This document shows, in pieces, positions 3,252-23,657 of a DNA stretch of 35,802 bases. The stretch is from Opitutia bacterium (lineage in GTDB: Bacteria; Verrucomicrobiota; Verrucomicrobiia; Opitutales; Opitutaceae): positions 1 to 35,802 of the forward strand of contig CANIJN010000022.1 in the NCBI GenBank assembly GCA_947467625.1, written 5' to 3'. A program made the position numbers and the translations under genes. Every line of letters begins with the position of its first letter. The first letter of the stretch is position 1. The notes under the pieces are model-generated. The model did not search any database, was not told where the DNA came from, and worked only from the letters and a program-made list of their open reading frames with translations.

Positions 3252-4475
3252 TCACCGCAACCGCACCATCAACTGGTTCCGCCCGTTCACGCCGAGCTTC
3301 TTAAAGATCGAAGTCAGCTGCCCCTTCACGGTTTTAACACTCTTCCGGAGTCGCCGCGCGATCTCCTCATTGTCGAGTCCGGCGCTCACCTGTCGGGCGA
3401 TCTCGCGTTCGGCCACCGTGAGCTGCCCGAGCAGGGAATGCGCCGGCAACTGGTCGAGCGCCGGCATGGCCGCGTGATTCTCGAGATAGACAATAAATCC
3501 GGGATACGCAGTCCTCACGTGCTCCTCCACGTGCAACCGGATCGTCGCCGTGAACCCGACCTGCGTGGGCTGACTAACCTTGGTGGCTCCGCCCGGGTGT
3601 CGCTTACCCATCGATTGGTGCTCCAACCACTCGGCCTTCAACGCCGCACACGCCTGCACAATCTCCGCCGGCGGCGCAAACACCGCTCGCGGCTGATACG
3701 CCCGCGCCTTCGCCGGACCAAAATTCCACAGCGCACACTGTTCGAGCCCCGCCTGGTTCACATAGAGCGACTTCATTTCCCAGTTCAGAAAGAGCAGCGC
3801 AAACGGCAGGTGATGGTTAAATGCCTCGAGCCACCGGCGTCGCGCGCGTTCCTCCTCGGAGGCGAGCAGCCGATGGAGCACCGTATCGATATGCGGATAC
3901 ACCGCTTCAAGCAAAGCGACTTCCTTCGCCGTAAAGTCACCCTGCTTGGCCGTGCGCCGAATCGCGATCTGCGATCCCACGCGATCACCCCGCCAATAGA
4001 GCGCGACGGCGAGATGGTGCCACCCGAAGGGTTCGAGAAATTCTTTAAAAAACGCCGAGCGCCGTAACTCGCTCTGGTCCGGAACCACATCCGACAGCCG
4101 GTAGATTTTGATCTTCTTCGGCTGAGCGAGGACGAAGCGCGGGGTCATGTCCACTTGCCGCCGGTTTTGAAACCACTTCGTCGGCCGCTGGGCGTTGGGC
4201 GTCGCGAGGATTTCCGTTGCCTGCCAGGAGGTCTCGAAGTCGAGGAAGTTGAGATAGACGATCAGCGCGTCATAGGGAATCGTCGCGCCCAGCAAGGCCT
4301 GCAACGCCGTCCAAAATTGCGGAATGTCGTTCGCCGCGTGCAACCGTAACAATCGCGAGTCGATCCCCGCCGAGCCGTGGAGCAGCCCCCCTGGGCGCTC
4401 GCGCTTACCCTTCGACGACTCCGGTCTCTGACCGCGCGGCACGCCGGTGAGCGAGGTATGAAAGGCGTTCTTCAT
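3252..4475 (-). CDS. LuxR-family HTH transcriptional regulator
   Basis: A 407-residue DNA-binding regulator. The last 60 or so residues form a GerE/LuxR helix-turn-helix: LTVAEREIARQVSAGLDNEE, then IARRLRKSVKTVKGQLTSIF and KKLGVNGRNQLM. These match the family pattern of a TxxE start, an EIA..L helix, a KTVK recognition helix and a KLGV..R end. The upstream 330 residues are poorly conserved to the eye; residues 40-200 look like a GAF-type sensor and residues 200-300 like a PAS-type segment, both inference. There is no receiver domain with a phospho-acceptor Asp, so this is not a classical response regulator. The pectate lyase starts 125 bp downstream on the same strand, which makes it a candidate regulator of that gene. 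The ATG start is the first in frame; the first 30 residues are basic and low-complexity, so the true start could be later. Confidence 0.85.
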   Translation of the reverse strand: MKNAFHTSLTGVPRGQRPESSKGKRERPGGLLHGSAGIDSRLLRLHAANDIPQFWTALQALLGATIPYDALIVYLNFLDFETSWQATEILATPNAQRPTKWFQNRRQVDMTPRFVLAQPKKIKIYRLSDVVPDQSELRRSAFFKEFLEPFGWHHLAVALYWRGDRVGSQIAIRRTAKQGDFTAKEVALLEAVYPHIDTVLHRLLASEEERARRRWLEAFNHHLPFALLFLNWEMKSLYVNQAGLEQCALWNFGPAKARAYQPRAVFAPPAEIVQACAALKAEWLEHQSMGKRHPGGATKVSQPTQVGFTATIRLHVEEHVRTAYPGFIVYLENHAAMPALDQLPAHSLLGQLTVAEREIARQVSAGLDNEEIARRLRKSVKTVKGQLTSIFKKLGVNGRNQLMVRLR

Positions 4476-14026: not shown

Positions 14027-14034
14027 GACGAAAA

Positions 14035-14062
14035 GTAGTGAGTAGTGGGTAGCGGGTAGCGA
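14035..14062. repeat. Heptamer tandem repeat, four copies
   Basis: Four perfect-phase 7-bp units with consensus GTAGYGR lie head to tail in the 102-bp gap between the aroB stop and the next gene, ending 8 bp before its start codon on the minus strand. Intergenic heptamer tandem repeats are known as STRR elements in cyanobacteria; relationship here is only by analogy. Confidence 0.7.
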
Positions 14063-14128
14063 GCATTTTGAAAAGCGGCGCTCGCTCCACTGTCCCCGGC
14101 TCACTCCGGGCGACTCGCCCCTGCCCCA

Positions 14129-19830: not shown

Positions 19831-19879
19831 GTCACACATGTCACGCGGCCACTCGGGCCACGCGCGTCACCCGTCGCAC
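19831..19879. repeat. Nonamer-period tandem repeat between yajC and secDF
   Basis: A loosely conserved unit (consensus GYCAC plus four variable bases, mostly C/G) recurs with CAC triplets starting at 19833, 19842, 19850, 19859, 19868 and 19877, that is every 9 bp with one 8-bp step. It fills about half of the 98-bp intergenic space inside the yajC-secDF unit. Confidence 0.6.
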
Positions 19880-20339: not shown

Positions 20340-22283
20340 TTGAAAAACAAATCCTCCTCCGCCTGGTCGGTCGCCAAGTCCGAAGAACACTACGGTTTCA
20401 AGCGGTGGGGCTCCGGCCACATCTCGGTTGACGACGCCGGCTTCGTTAACGTCCAACCGCTCGCCGATGGCCGCGGCATCCGCGTCCTCGACGTCATTGA
20501 TGAGGCCGTCGGCATGGGCCTCAAAGCTCCGTTGGTGATCCGTTTCCAAGATCTCCTCCGCCATCGCGTGGTCCAAATCAACGCCTGCTTCGCCAAAGCC
20601 ATCAAGGAGGAGGCCTACAAAGGCAGCTACCGCGGAGTCTTCCCCATCAAGGTCAACCAGCTCCGCGAGGTCGTCGACGAAATCGTCTCCGCCGGCAAGG
20701 ACTTCAACTACGGTCTCGAAGCCGGCTCGAAGCCCGAGCTCATGATCGCGCTCGCCATGCACGAGGGCACCCAGCGCCTCATCATTTGTAACGGCTACAA
20801 GGACCACGACTACATCCGTCTCGCCCTGCTCGGTCGCAAACTAGGCAAAAAGATCATCATCGTCGTCGAGCAGCTCGCCGAGATCGACGACATCATCAAG
20901 ATTTCCCAAGAGGTCGGCGTGAAGCCCATGATCGGCTTCCGCGCTAAACTGCTCACCCGCGGCGAGGGCAAGTGGGCGATGTCCACCGGCGACAACGCGA
21001 AGTTCGGCCTCAACACCGCCGAAATCCTCTTCGCCTGCGAAAAACTCCGCGCCGCCAAACTCCAATCCTGCCTGCGCCTCGTGCACTTCCACATCGGCTC
21101 CCAGGTGCCGAACATCATCACGATCAAGAACGCCGTCGTCGAAGCGACCCGCTTCTATTGCCAGCTCGACAAAATGGGCTTCCCCATGGGCTACCTCGAC
21201 GTCGGCGGTGGTCTCGGCGTCGACTACGATGGCTCTCGGACGAACTTTGAGAGCTCCATGAACTACTCGATGGAGGAATACGCCCGCGACGTGGTCTCCA
21301 ATATCCGCGACATCTGCACCGAGTCCGGTGTAGCCGTGCCCGACATCGTCAGCGAGTCCGGCCGCGCCATCGTCGCCCCTCACTCGCTGCTCGTCGTCGA
21401 AGTCTTCGAGCGTATCAACAAACACGAGTCGCTCGGCCAACAACATCAGCCCAAGGTGAAACACAAAGTCGTCACCGATCTCGAGGTGATGCTCAAGAAC
21501 AAGGGCAAACTCGGCCGCTTGGAACGTTTTCACGACGCGCTACAGAAAAAAGAGGAGTCGTTTTCACTCTTTAACCTCGGCTACCTCGACCTCGAAAACC
21601 GCGCCGCCGCCGAATCGATCTATTGGCAGATCTGCGAACAAATCGCCAAAGAAGGCCGCGATACCGGCTACCAACCCGAAGAGCTCCACGATCTCAACAA
21701 GCTCCTCGCCGACCAATACGTCTGCAATTTCTCCGTCTTCCAGTCGCTCCTGGACCACTGGGCGCTCAAGCAGCTCTTCCCCGTCGCCCCGCTTCATCGC
21801 CTGAAGGAGCGGCCCACCGTCAACGCCATCCTCGCCGATATCACCTGCGACTCCGATGGAAAAATCTCCTCGTTCATCGATCTCCAAGACACGAAGGACT
21901 ACATCACGCTCCACCCGCTCAACGGCAAGCCGTACTTCCTCGGCGTTTTCCTCACGGGCGCGTATCAGGATATCATGGGCGACCTCCATAACCTCTTCGG
22001 GCGTGTCAACGAGGTCCACGTCTTCCTCGAAGATGATGAACCCAACGGCTTCTACGTCGAGGAAGCGCTCAGCGGCAGTCGGATCGCCGACGTCCTCGAG
22101 GGCGTGCAATATCAGCAGGAAGAACTCTGCCGCAAGATGAAGGCCCAGATCGACGCCGCCACGCGCAAAGACATCGTGAAACCCCGCGAGGGCGTCCGCC
22201 TCCTCGAACTCTACGAAAGCCAAATGCTCAACAAGACCTACCTGAACATCGAGTCGAAGCCGGGACGGAAGAAAAAAACGTAG
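20340..22283 (+). CDS. speA: Biosynthetic arginine decarboxylase
   Basis: SpeA is a PLP enzyme converting arginine to agmatine, the first step of polyamine synthesis by the agmatine route. The 647-residue protein shows YRGVFPIKVNQ with the PLP-binding Lys (K104), FHIGSQVPN, LDVGGGLGVDYDG (phosphate-binding glycines), SESGRAIVAPHS, and the C-terminal ITCDSDGKISSFID with the conserved Cys and Asp of the substrate site. Length matches the E. coli enzyme. The start is TTG: an in-frame TAA at 20313-20315 lies nine codons upstream, and no ATG or GTG occurs between it and residue 59, which is already inside the fold. No agmatine-processing gene is in this window. Confidence 0.95.
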   Translation: MKNKSSSAWSVAKSEEHYGFKRWGSGHISVDDAGFVNVQPLADGRGIRVLDVIDEAVGMGLKAPLVIRFQDLLRHRVVQINACFAKAIKEEAYKGSYRGVFPIKVNQLREVVDEIVSAGKDFNYGLEAGSKPELMIALAMHEGTQRLIICNGYKDHDYIRLALLGRKLGKKIIIVVEQLAEIDDIIKISQEVGVKPMIGFRAKLLTRGEGKWAMSTGDNAKFGLNTAEILFACEKLRAAKLQSCLRLVHFHIGSQVPNIITIKNAVVEATRFYCQLDKMGFPMGYLDVGGGLGVDYDGSRTNFESSMNYSMEEYARDVVSNIRDICTESGVAVPDIVSESGRAIVAPHSLLVVEVFERINKHESLGQQHQPKVKHKVVTDLEVMLKNKGKLGRLERFHDALQKKEESFSLFNLGYLDLENRAAAESIYWQICEQIAKEGRDTGYQPEELHDLNKLLADQYVCNFSVFQSLLDHWALKQLFPVAPLHRLKERPTVNAILADITCDSDGKISSFIDLQDTKDYITLHPLNGKPYFLGVFLTGAYQDIMGDLHNLFGRVNEVHVFLEDDEPNGFYVEEALSGSRIADVLEGVQYQQEELCRKMKAQIDAATRKDIVKPREGVRLLELYESQMLNKTYLNIESKPGRKKKT

Positions 22284-22330
22284 GTTTTCGCCGGGTGTGA
22301 TCAGCGCCGCGCAGCCGCCCCGCCTGATTT

Positions 22331-22375
22331 CTCCGCGTAGTCCCAGTCCTCCGCGTACTTCGCGTTCTCCGCGTT
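22331..22375. repeat. Nonamer tandem repeat, five units
   Basis: Five 9-bp units with consensus CTCCGCGTW; the octamer CTCCGCGT is exact at 22331, 22349 and 22367, with one substitution at 22358, and the second unit is degenerate. It lies in the 279-bp gap after speA, in non-coding sequence. Confidence 0.65.
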
Positions 22376-22517
22376 TCAAATCGGGAGTCGGGATCCATTC
22401 CTGTTGGGTCAGGCGCAGTCCTACTCACACCCGCTGACACACGTATCAGCAGTCCGCCATTGACCGTCCGCCGACCGCGTTCTTGGCTCTGCTTTCTGCC
22501 GTGTTTAACGTGTGTTC

Positions 22518-22531
22518 CGTGGGTACCCACG
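22518..22531. promoter_or_regulatory. 14-bp perfect palindrome upstream of the sugar kinase (possible operator)
   Basis: CGTGGGTACCCACG is perfectly self-complementary over 14 bases and ends 31 bp before the ATG of the KDG-kinase-like gene. Dimeric regulators often bind such sites; no cognate regulator can be named. Confidence 0.35.

Positions 22532-22562: not shown

Positions 22563-23657
<1,095 letters not shown>

Follow-up and report, generated by a model that had tools for sequence, protein, structure and literature searches.

A 9-bp lattice array downstream of speA in an Opitutaceae genome is probably an orphan copy of a dispersed family of lattice arms

Introduction

The closest described element with a PF05635-type protein between inverted repeats is the 23S rRNA IVS. 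In the relevant passage of PMC4990558, this is a selfish element of 428 nt that contains an S23 ORF, has terminal inverted repeats forming a 28-bp stem, and is regarded as a horizontal acquisition. The Pfam name of PF05635 derives from the S23 IVS protein. Like the IVS as described in that passage, many PF05635 genes studied here are small ORFs bracketed by inverted repeats; unlike in the IVS, these repeats are 7-bp lattices, and the arrays in our DNA lie between protein genes. Moreover, the array that is the subject of this work, at position 22331, is of a 9-bp type that goes with another protein, GxxExxY (PF13366, PD-(D/E)XK nuclease-like). The heptameric G-rich repeats of Xanthomonas and Nostoc, in the portion of PMC4692102 that deals with them, share with these arrays a short bacterial repeat unit of 6-9 bp, whereas our arrays often form inverted pairs around genes and have a period tied to a protein family.

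Two further kinds of element invite comparison. One form of the arrays, found in a related genome (G034), is like a MITE: it is short and non-coding, its ends are inverted, and it is flanked by target duplications of 5 bp. The copy after speA lacks the G034 ends and has a different pair, CGGGTGTGA/TCACACCCG, instead. REP/RAYT elements are also intergenic palindromes scattered in a bacterial genome, but our arms have no link to Y1 transposase genes. In the titles and abstract openings returned by searches of an open-access library we found no description of lattices flanking GxxExxY or PF05635 genes, and we found no stated role for GxxExxY or "four helix bundle" proteins, both of which are frequent annotations. 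PMC12085832 uses the term GxxExxY and PMC9756366 uses PF13366; the relevant passage of PMC8934634 does not concern repeats.

Here, we analyze an array in a 35,802-nucleotide stretch of an Opitutaceae genome (contig CANIJN010000022.1), which we call the window.

Results

A 9-bp lattice lies between speA and a kinase gene

The array (22329..22379, plus strand) consists of five units, CTCCGCGTA-GTCCCAGTC-CTCCGCGTA-CTTCGCGTT-CTCCGCGTTTCAA, as supported by the sequence, by TRF, by matches to its family in the genome and by orthologs. The initial annotation had reported an exact octamer, CTCCGCGT, at 22331, 22349 and 22367 and a one-mismatch copy at 22358, which reads CTTCGCGT; the sequence agrees. 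The second unit, at 22340, is badly decayed (GTCCCAGTC), and the lattice has a conserved TTTCAA end. The array is intergenic. Upstream is speA, encoding arginine decarboxylase (20340..22283, plus strand; PF02784, PF17810 and PF17944), and downstream is a gene for a pfkB-family carbohydrate kinase (22563..23657, plus strand; PF00294, E 7.2e-15). Rfam and tRNA scans of the window gave no match, and the array, situated between two protein genes, is not an insertion in rRNA of the IVS kind.

TRF calls the array at 22329-22375 with period 9 (score 45) and period 18 (score 57). When the window was shuffled 100 times with dinucleotide composition kept, a score of at least 57 was reached in 9 shuffles, so that its significance in the window alone is borderline. 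The window has 16 TRF rows with a score of at least 30, two of which are the 22331 array, and many of the others fall in long ORFs of the mechanical ORF list; 100 dinucleotide shuffles gave a mean of 9.4 and a maximum of 18 such rows. The borderline score would suit a microsatellite made by local replication slippage with no link to other arrays, a reading to which we return below.

The array belongs to a dispersed family

The array unit with its fixed end, CTCCGCGNNCTCCGCGTTTCAA, occurs 17 times in the window's genome and 0 times in the reversed control, and it is also found in other phyla. The family has the unit CTCCGCGNN followed by the fixed TTTCAA end. With up to three mismatches, the pattern CTCCGCGTNCTCCGCGTTTCAA gave 17 matches in the genome against 0 reversed, and the pattern CTCYGCGTNCTCYGCGT with at most one mismatch gave 18 against 2; the window copy, with its units spaced at 9 bp and its TTTCAA end, is one of the 17. 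The TRF call, these matches and the position between genes establish the previously noted 9-bp lattice in non-coding DNA as real. The process suggested for it, one that makes local arrays only between genes, is not supported: the unit belongs to a dispersed family, and one family copy apparently lies in the signal-peptide part of a long ORF, at a site common to five genomes. Recurrence of the same unit and TTTCAA end at 17 places against 0 in the control, and in other phyla, likewise argues against slippage as the origin of the array.

At up to two mismatches the motif is present in 13 of 57 genomes, the window's own included. G034 alone has 41 matches, mostly as inverted pairs about 110-130 bp apart. 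An exact 22-mer scan of named genomes returned 95 contig stretches, mostly from Opitutaceae/Opitutia. Other labels, among the 80 stretches listed by name, are Gemmataceae, Thermogutta, Aphanothece, Acidobacteria, Ktedonobacterales and Kuenenia MAGs, so that by exact 22-mer the family reaches Planctomycetota, a cyanobacterium, Acidobacteria and Ktedonobacterales MAGs, with the caveat that MAG contigs may be mislabelled. An inverted partner lies upstream of many of the 101 exact matches, and inverted arm pairs also exist in the window's genome (for example, at C219); the motif search of that genome found no inverted CTCCGCG partner in the window.

The array predates the split of three species and lies within a palindrome

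In two congeneric species (G001 and G003), speA is likewise followed by the array and then the kinase gene, and the spacer otherwise aligns throughout. Since both carry the array at the same place, it is older than the split of the three species, which is a further point against a local slippage product. The number of units at this site differs between species, with three in G001 and G003 and five in the window. Given the three units in both relatives, the window copy probably gained 18 bp; we infer the direction, from three to five units, from this comparison. This variation speaks for slippage, which probably produced the 18-bp difference; as an account of the whole array we regard it as improbable. 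No usable empty site is available at the speA-kinase junction, because the spacer between the two genes in G007 is a different and longer one of 890 bp.

An imperfect palindrome surrounds the array (22292..22433, plus strand), in which CGGGTGTGA (22292-22300) pairs with TCACACCCG (22425-22433). It has a predicted folding energy of -54.3 kcal/mol (z -2.19), which 7 of 200 shuffles equal. We call this low-copy, non-coding layout class B. It is present at about six distinct places in the genus, and a sequence model of it recovered the training places and one further ortholog (G001:C125), the other matches being weaker and mostly partial, over the array part. These non-coding class B palindromes are the nearest relatives of the window copy. 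The 9-bp outer stem CGGGTGTGA/TCACACCCG forms terminal inverted repeats of the kind that MITEs have, unlike the G034 ends in sequence, and inspection of class B copies by eye gave no clear target-site duplication.

The outer stem is kept in all three species, the fold has a z-score of -2.19, and the palindrome lies directly 3' of speA. These features could indicate a functional speA RNA element (a terminator, stabilizer or attenuator) with the lattice as just its loop. However, the palindrome has no Rfam match, terminator-like sites are situated beyond it, at 22470 and 22518, the layout recurs at about five other places, and G007 keeps speA and the kinase gene with its different, longer spacer. 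We therefore consider an RNA element very unlikely.

Shortly before the kinase gene, the same spacer contains another 9-bp lattice arm, which is more decayed (22495..22525, plus strand). This CCGTGTGTT-type lattice resembles the flanks of another GxxExxY subfamily; it matches the arms at L429, L442 and L419 with scores of 16, 15 and 14. The arm is clearer in the G003 ortholog, where it reads CCGTGATTT-CCGTGTGCT-CCGTGGGCA. Hence, in place of two inverted arms of the same unit, the spacer has a CTCCGCG arm and, at 22495, an arm whose unit is another one. A tblastn search of the spacer with 58 GxxExxY proteins gave a best E-value of 0.27, and at an E-value threshold of 1e-4 neither these 58 nor 70 PF05635 proteins matched any of the 16 loci with the 17 arrays of this genome. 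Because these searches found neither a cargo gene at the arrays of this genome nor a GxxExxY remnant in the spacer, we do not file the window array as a cassette.

A MITE-like element carries the same arms in G034

The arms in G034 (loci L076-L092) belong to a non-coding element of 160-181 bp that has the ends CCTAGAAAACG and TTTAGG. An inverted pair of CTCCGCG..TTTCAA arms is present at 16 of the 17 loci fetched. A script placed nine of the 17 loci, all with perfect 5-bp target duplications. Among the eight unplaced loci, inspected by eye, the duplication is also present at L077, L088 and L089, has one mismatch in its five bases at L078 and L083, and is missing at L082, while L080 and L091 contain incomplete copies. 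The duplications are of the form NTNAN. Since this non-coding element has its own ends and target duplications, the same arms are carried by more than one vehicle.

The ends of the G034 element presumably resemble those of ISEcp1/IS1380. We considered an IS1380 transposase as the autonomous partner and rejected it: PF13701 has a patchy distribution (22 of 57 genomes), and its single match in G034 is weak and partial. Among the Y1 and PF13701 transposases examined, we found no autonomous partner for the element.

The main rival to the explanation that we favor (see Discussion) is this class B or MITE-like route, in which the window array is what remains of a non-coding element, made of arms plus a loop, that a transposase of the host mobilized and that never had a link to GxxExxY. 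The inverted pairs at 16 of 17 G034 loci and the nine copies of 160-181 bp with perfect 5-bp duplications and CCTAGAAAACG...TTTAGG-type ends all fit such a history, as do pairs in the window's genome such as C219 and the finding of no cargo protein near its arrays. On the other hand, the window copy is without G034-type ends and sits in a different palindrome, class B, and the search for an autonomous partner yielded none, with the one weak partial PF13701 match in G034 and the arm motif at 2 of 30 Y1 loci. On balance, we judge this route unlikely, although less so than the other alternatives.

Dispersal as a REP element by a RAYT-type transposase is the least credible reading. The family does include short palindromic intergenic repeats, and Y1 transposases (PF01797) are common (43 of 57 genomes). 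However, the arm motif is found at only 2 of 30 Y1 loci (2 sites against 3 in the reversed control) and, under a stricter motif, at 0 of 30, and we rejected the link.

GxxExxY genes often lie between 9- to 10-bp lattices

Clustering of ORFs near the arrays gave a GxxExxY cluster in 3 of the 95 stretches (L320, L281 and L316), among larger clusters of other genes; we singled out this small cluster because we expected the association beforehand. The L320 and L281 proteins were confirmed as TIGR04256. Arms of the window type flank GxxExxY on both sides in L281, L316, L320 and L410, with an extra arm in L316 and L320, and they flank a frameshifted GxxExxY gene in G031. Cassettes with the window's unit are few (these five), and an arm of this type lies within 700 bp of only 4 of 44 GxxExxY-motif places in the loci examined.

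PF13366 is present in 40 of the 57 genomes. We compared the 150 bp before and after the domain in a unit-blind test for inverted repeats at 90 loci, 30 from the search and 60 from listed places taken nearly in rank order with few skipped, a non-random sample of a larger number of matches. At a score of at least 16, inverted repeats were found at 54 of 90 GxxExxY loci, whereas mismatched pairs gave 4 of 354 and the reversed control gave 0 of 90; the other 36 of the 90 loci have none at this score. The same test gave 1 of 29 real pairs for Y1 transposase genes, 1 of 30 for speA and 0 of 30 for ccsA; the mismatched-pair backgrounds at this score were 3/167, 6/172 and, notably high for ccsA, 26/172. 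A motif of two nonamers was found at 19 of 30 PF13366 loci (58 sites versus 8 reversed), at 5 of 30 DDE transposase loci (10 versus 3, above their own control) and at 7 of 30 speA loci (13 versus 10, with six of the 13 belonging to the window array and its two orthologs).

For tests of period and covariation we used the arms with an inverted-repeat score of at least 14, found at 58 of 90 GxxExxY and 42 of 70 PF05635 loci. The 58 GxxExxY arms have lag peaks at 9 and 10, with the best lag at 9 in 25, at 10 in 19 and at 8 in 11 arms. Their units vary and include AACCACAGAGGTCACAGAGGACACAGAG, AACCACGAAACACACGAAATACACGAAA and AACCGCTAATCTCCGCTAATCGGCGCTAAT, among others. Lattices of 10 bp instead of 9 bp, such as AACCACGGATGGACACGGATAAACACGGATT, flank the GxxExxY genes at L406, L480, L487, L488 and L458.

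Arm similarity follows GxxExxY protein similarity across genomes (rho 0.296), and this also applies to proteins of less than 60% identity (rho 0.212) and less than 45% identity (rho 0.146), with 0 of 999 permutations reaching the value in each case. Copies in the same genome are hardly more alike (arm similarity 0.272 for 34 pairs versus 0.253 between genomes). Because arm similarity tracks the protein and hardly the genome, arm and gene tend to be inherited together. The covariation fits recognition of the arm by the protein, without proving it, and can also be explained by shared descent of whole loci. A loose D...ExK pattern is present in 49 of the 58 GxxExxY proteins (a pattern search, with no alignment), and a search by sequence with one of them returned no relative of solved structure.

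One junction shows different states of decay

At a junction upstream of a ccsA-type gene, an open GxxExxY gene lies between window-type arms in L281 and L320. The same junction has arms and a frameshifted gene in G031, arms and residues 99-136 only in G009, arms and a weak match (30% identity) in L254, and a lattice with no gene in G028; G034 and G024 have GxxExxY sequence with other units. Thus, a single junction spans intact, frameshifted, internally deleted and gene-less states among genomes, which suggests one way in which orphan arrays could come about. Among 30 ccsA loci of relatives, three have GxxExxY sequence (G034, G009 and G024) and one has only a lattice at the junction (G028); the other 26 gave no match to GxxExxY, and in five of them the motif is matched in isolation. 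The comparison covers up to 800 bp upstream of the gene, and synteny was judged within that stretch.

PF05635 genes often lie between 7-bp lattices

PF05635 (four helix bundle) is present in 37 of the 57 genomes, with one member confirmed as TIGR02436. We examined 70 loci (30 from the search and 40 listed places, again nearly in rank order with few skipped and non-random, from a larger number of matches). Inverted repeats with a score of at least 16 were found at 35 of 70 loci, whereas mismatched pairs gave 5 of 345 and the reversed control gave 0 of 70; at a score of 14 the counts were 42/70, 7/345 and 1/70. The 42 arms have a period of 7, with a lag-7 identity of 0.70 and a best lag of 7 in 34 of them. 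Arm and protein covary (rho 0.325; 0 of 999 permutations), with weaker support than for GxxExxY: below 60% identity, rho is 0.236 against 0.234 for the best permutation, and below 45% protein identity the value is reached by 2 of 999 permutations. The L531 protein, in addition to its TIGR02436 match, resembles Avd, a protein of diversity-generating retroelements, below the threshold (23.9 bits against a cut-off of 80).

The window contains a 7-bp lattice of this type (14034..14063, plus strand; AGTAGTG-AGTAGTG-GGTAGCG-GGTAGCG-AG). With a TRF score of 32 it is within chance on its own, but in a scan of the whole window it matches the PF05635 arms L531, L562, L537 and L543 at 24, 18, 16 and 16, whereas the reversed window gave two single matches of 14. 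This genome has six PF05635 matches, all of them on contigs other than the window's, and therefore the 14034 array is gene-less as well.

The initial annotation had counted four arrays of 7- or 9-bp period in 36 kb. Those at 22331 and 14035 (the 7-bp lattice) stand; those at 19831 and 24056 do not, as neither has a TRF call at score 30 or a cassette-arm match at the scan threshold, a strict one (100 cassette arms) of which the 22331 array itself falls short. In a looser arm comparison, the best match of the latter is L410, with a score of 14. The broader claim of arrays of 7 or 9-10 bp with many different units is borne out for the Opitutaceae. What the annotation could not see is the link of both period and unit to the protein family, with 9-10 bp for GxxExxY and 7 bp for the four-helix-bundle proteins.

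Discussion

What, then, is the array after speA? We consider it probably an old, vertically inherited, gene-less ("orphan") copy of the dispersed lattice-arm family. Elsewhere, arms of this family form inverted pairs around small cassettes with a GxxExxY (PD-(D/E)XK-like) gene, and the same arms are also carried in non-coding palindromes and MITE-like elements. The window arm, within its 140-bp palindrome, was present before the three species split, and the lattice later diverged to three versus five units, most simply via an 18-bp local duplication. A selected function for the window copy is not needed.

We hypothesize that GxxExxY cassettes move, perhaps by the action of the encoded nuclease on its own lattice ends, and that the window copy descends from such a cassette event. 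We argue for this descent by analogy with loci elsewhere, because the window copy has its nearest relatives among the class B palindromes, which are non-coding.

A wider proposal, which we put forward tentatively and hold to be somewhat less than evenly probable, is that GxxExxY and PF05635, two tiny and unrelated proteins, define two classes of selfish cassettes with inverted-lattice ends, in which the period is set by the protein family and the unit varies together with the protein from one cassette to another. Each protein would recognize the lattice of its own cassette in order to move, and orphan arrays between genes, such as those at 22331, 22495 and 14034, would be what decay leaves behind across phyla. 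The data hint at an undescribed kind of small mobile cassette. If minimal mobile cassettes with matched lattice ends do exist, both protein families would gain a role, and many short intergenic arrays that resemble unrelated microsatellites would be explained. They would also represent a compact protein-repeat recognition system whose specificity shifts with the repeat unit, and the covariation of unit and protein makes the recognition idea directly testable.

Some arrays of the family appear to be part of coding sequence. The 3' arm of window-type cassettes can be read in frame as the C-terminus of GxxExxY (LSAPSASSAFQ in L281, at 3765-4202; also in L599), and in L281 the GxxExxY stop codon overlaps the start of the next gene. 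At about position 1501 of L005 (G000:C6), a family array apparently lies in frame in the signal-peptide part of a long ORF, where it encodes an LSASSAFQ-like sequence, and the same site is common to L005, L157, L173, L187 and L197.
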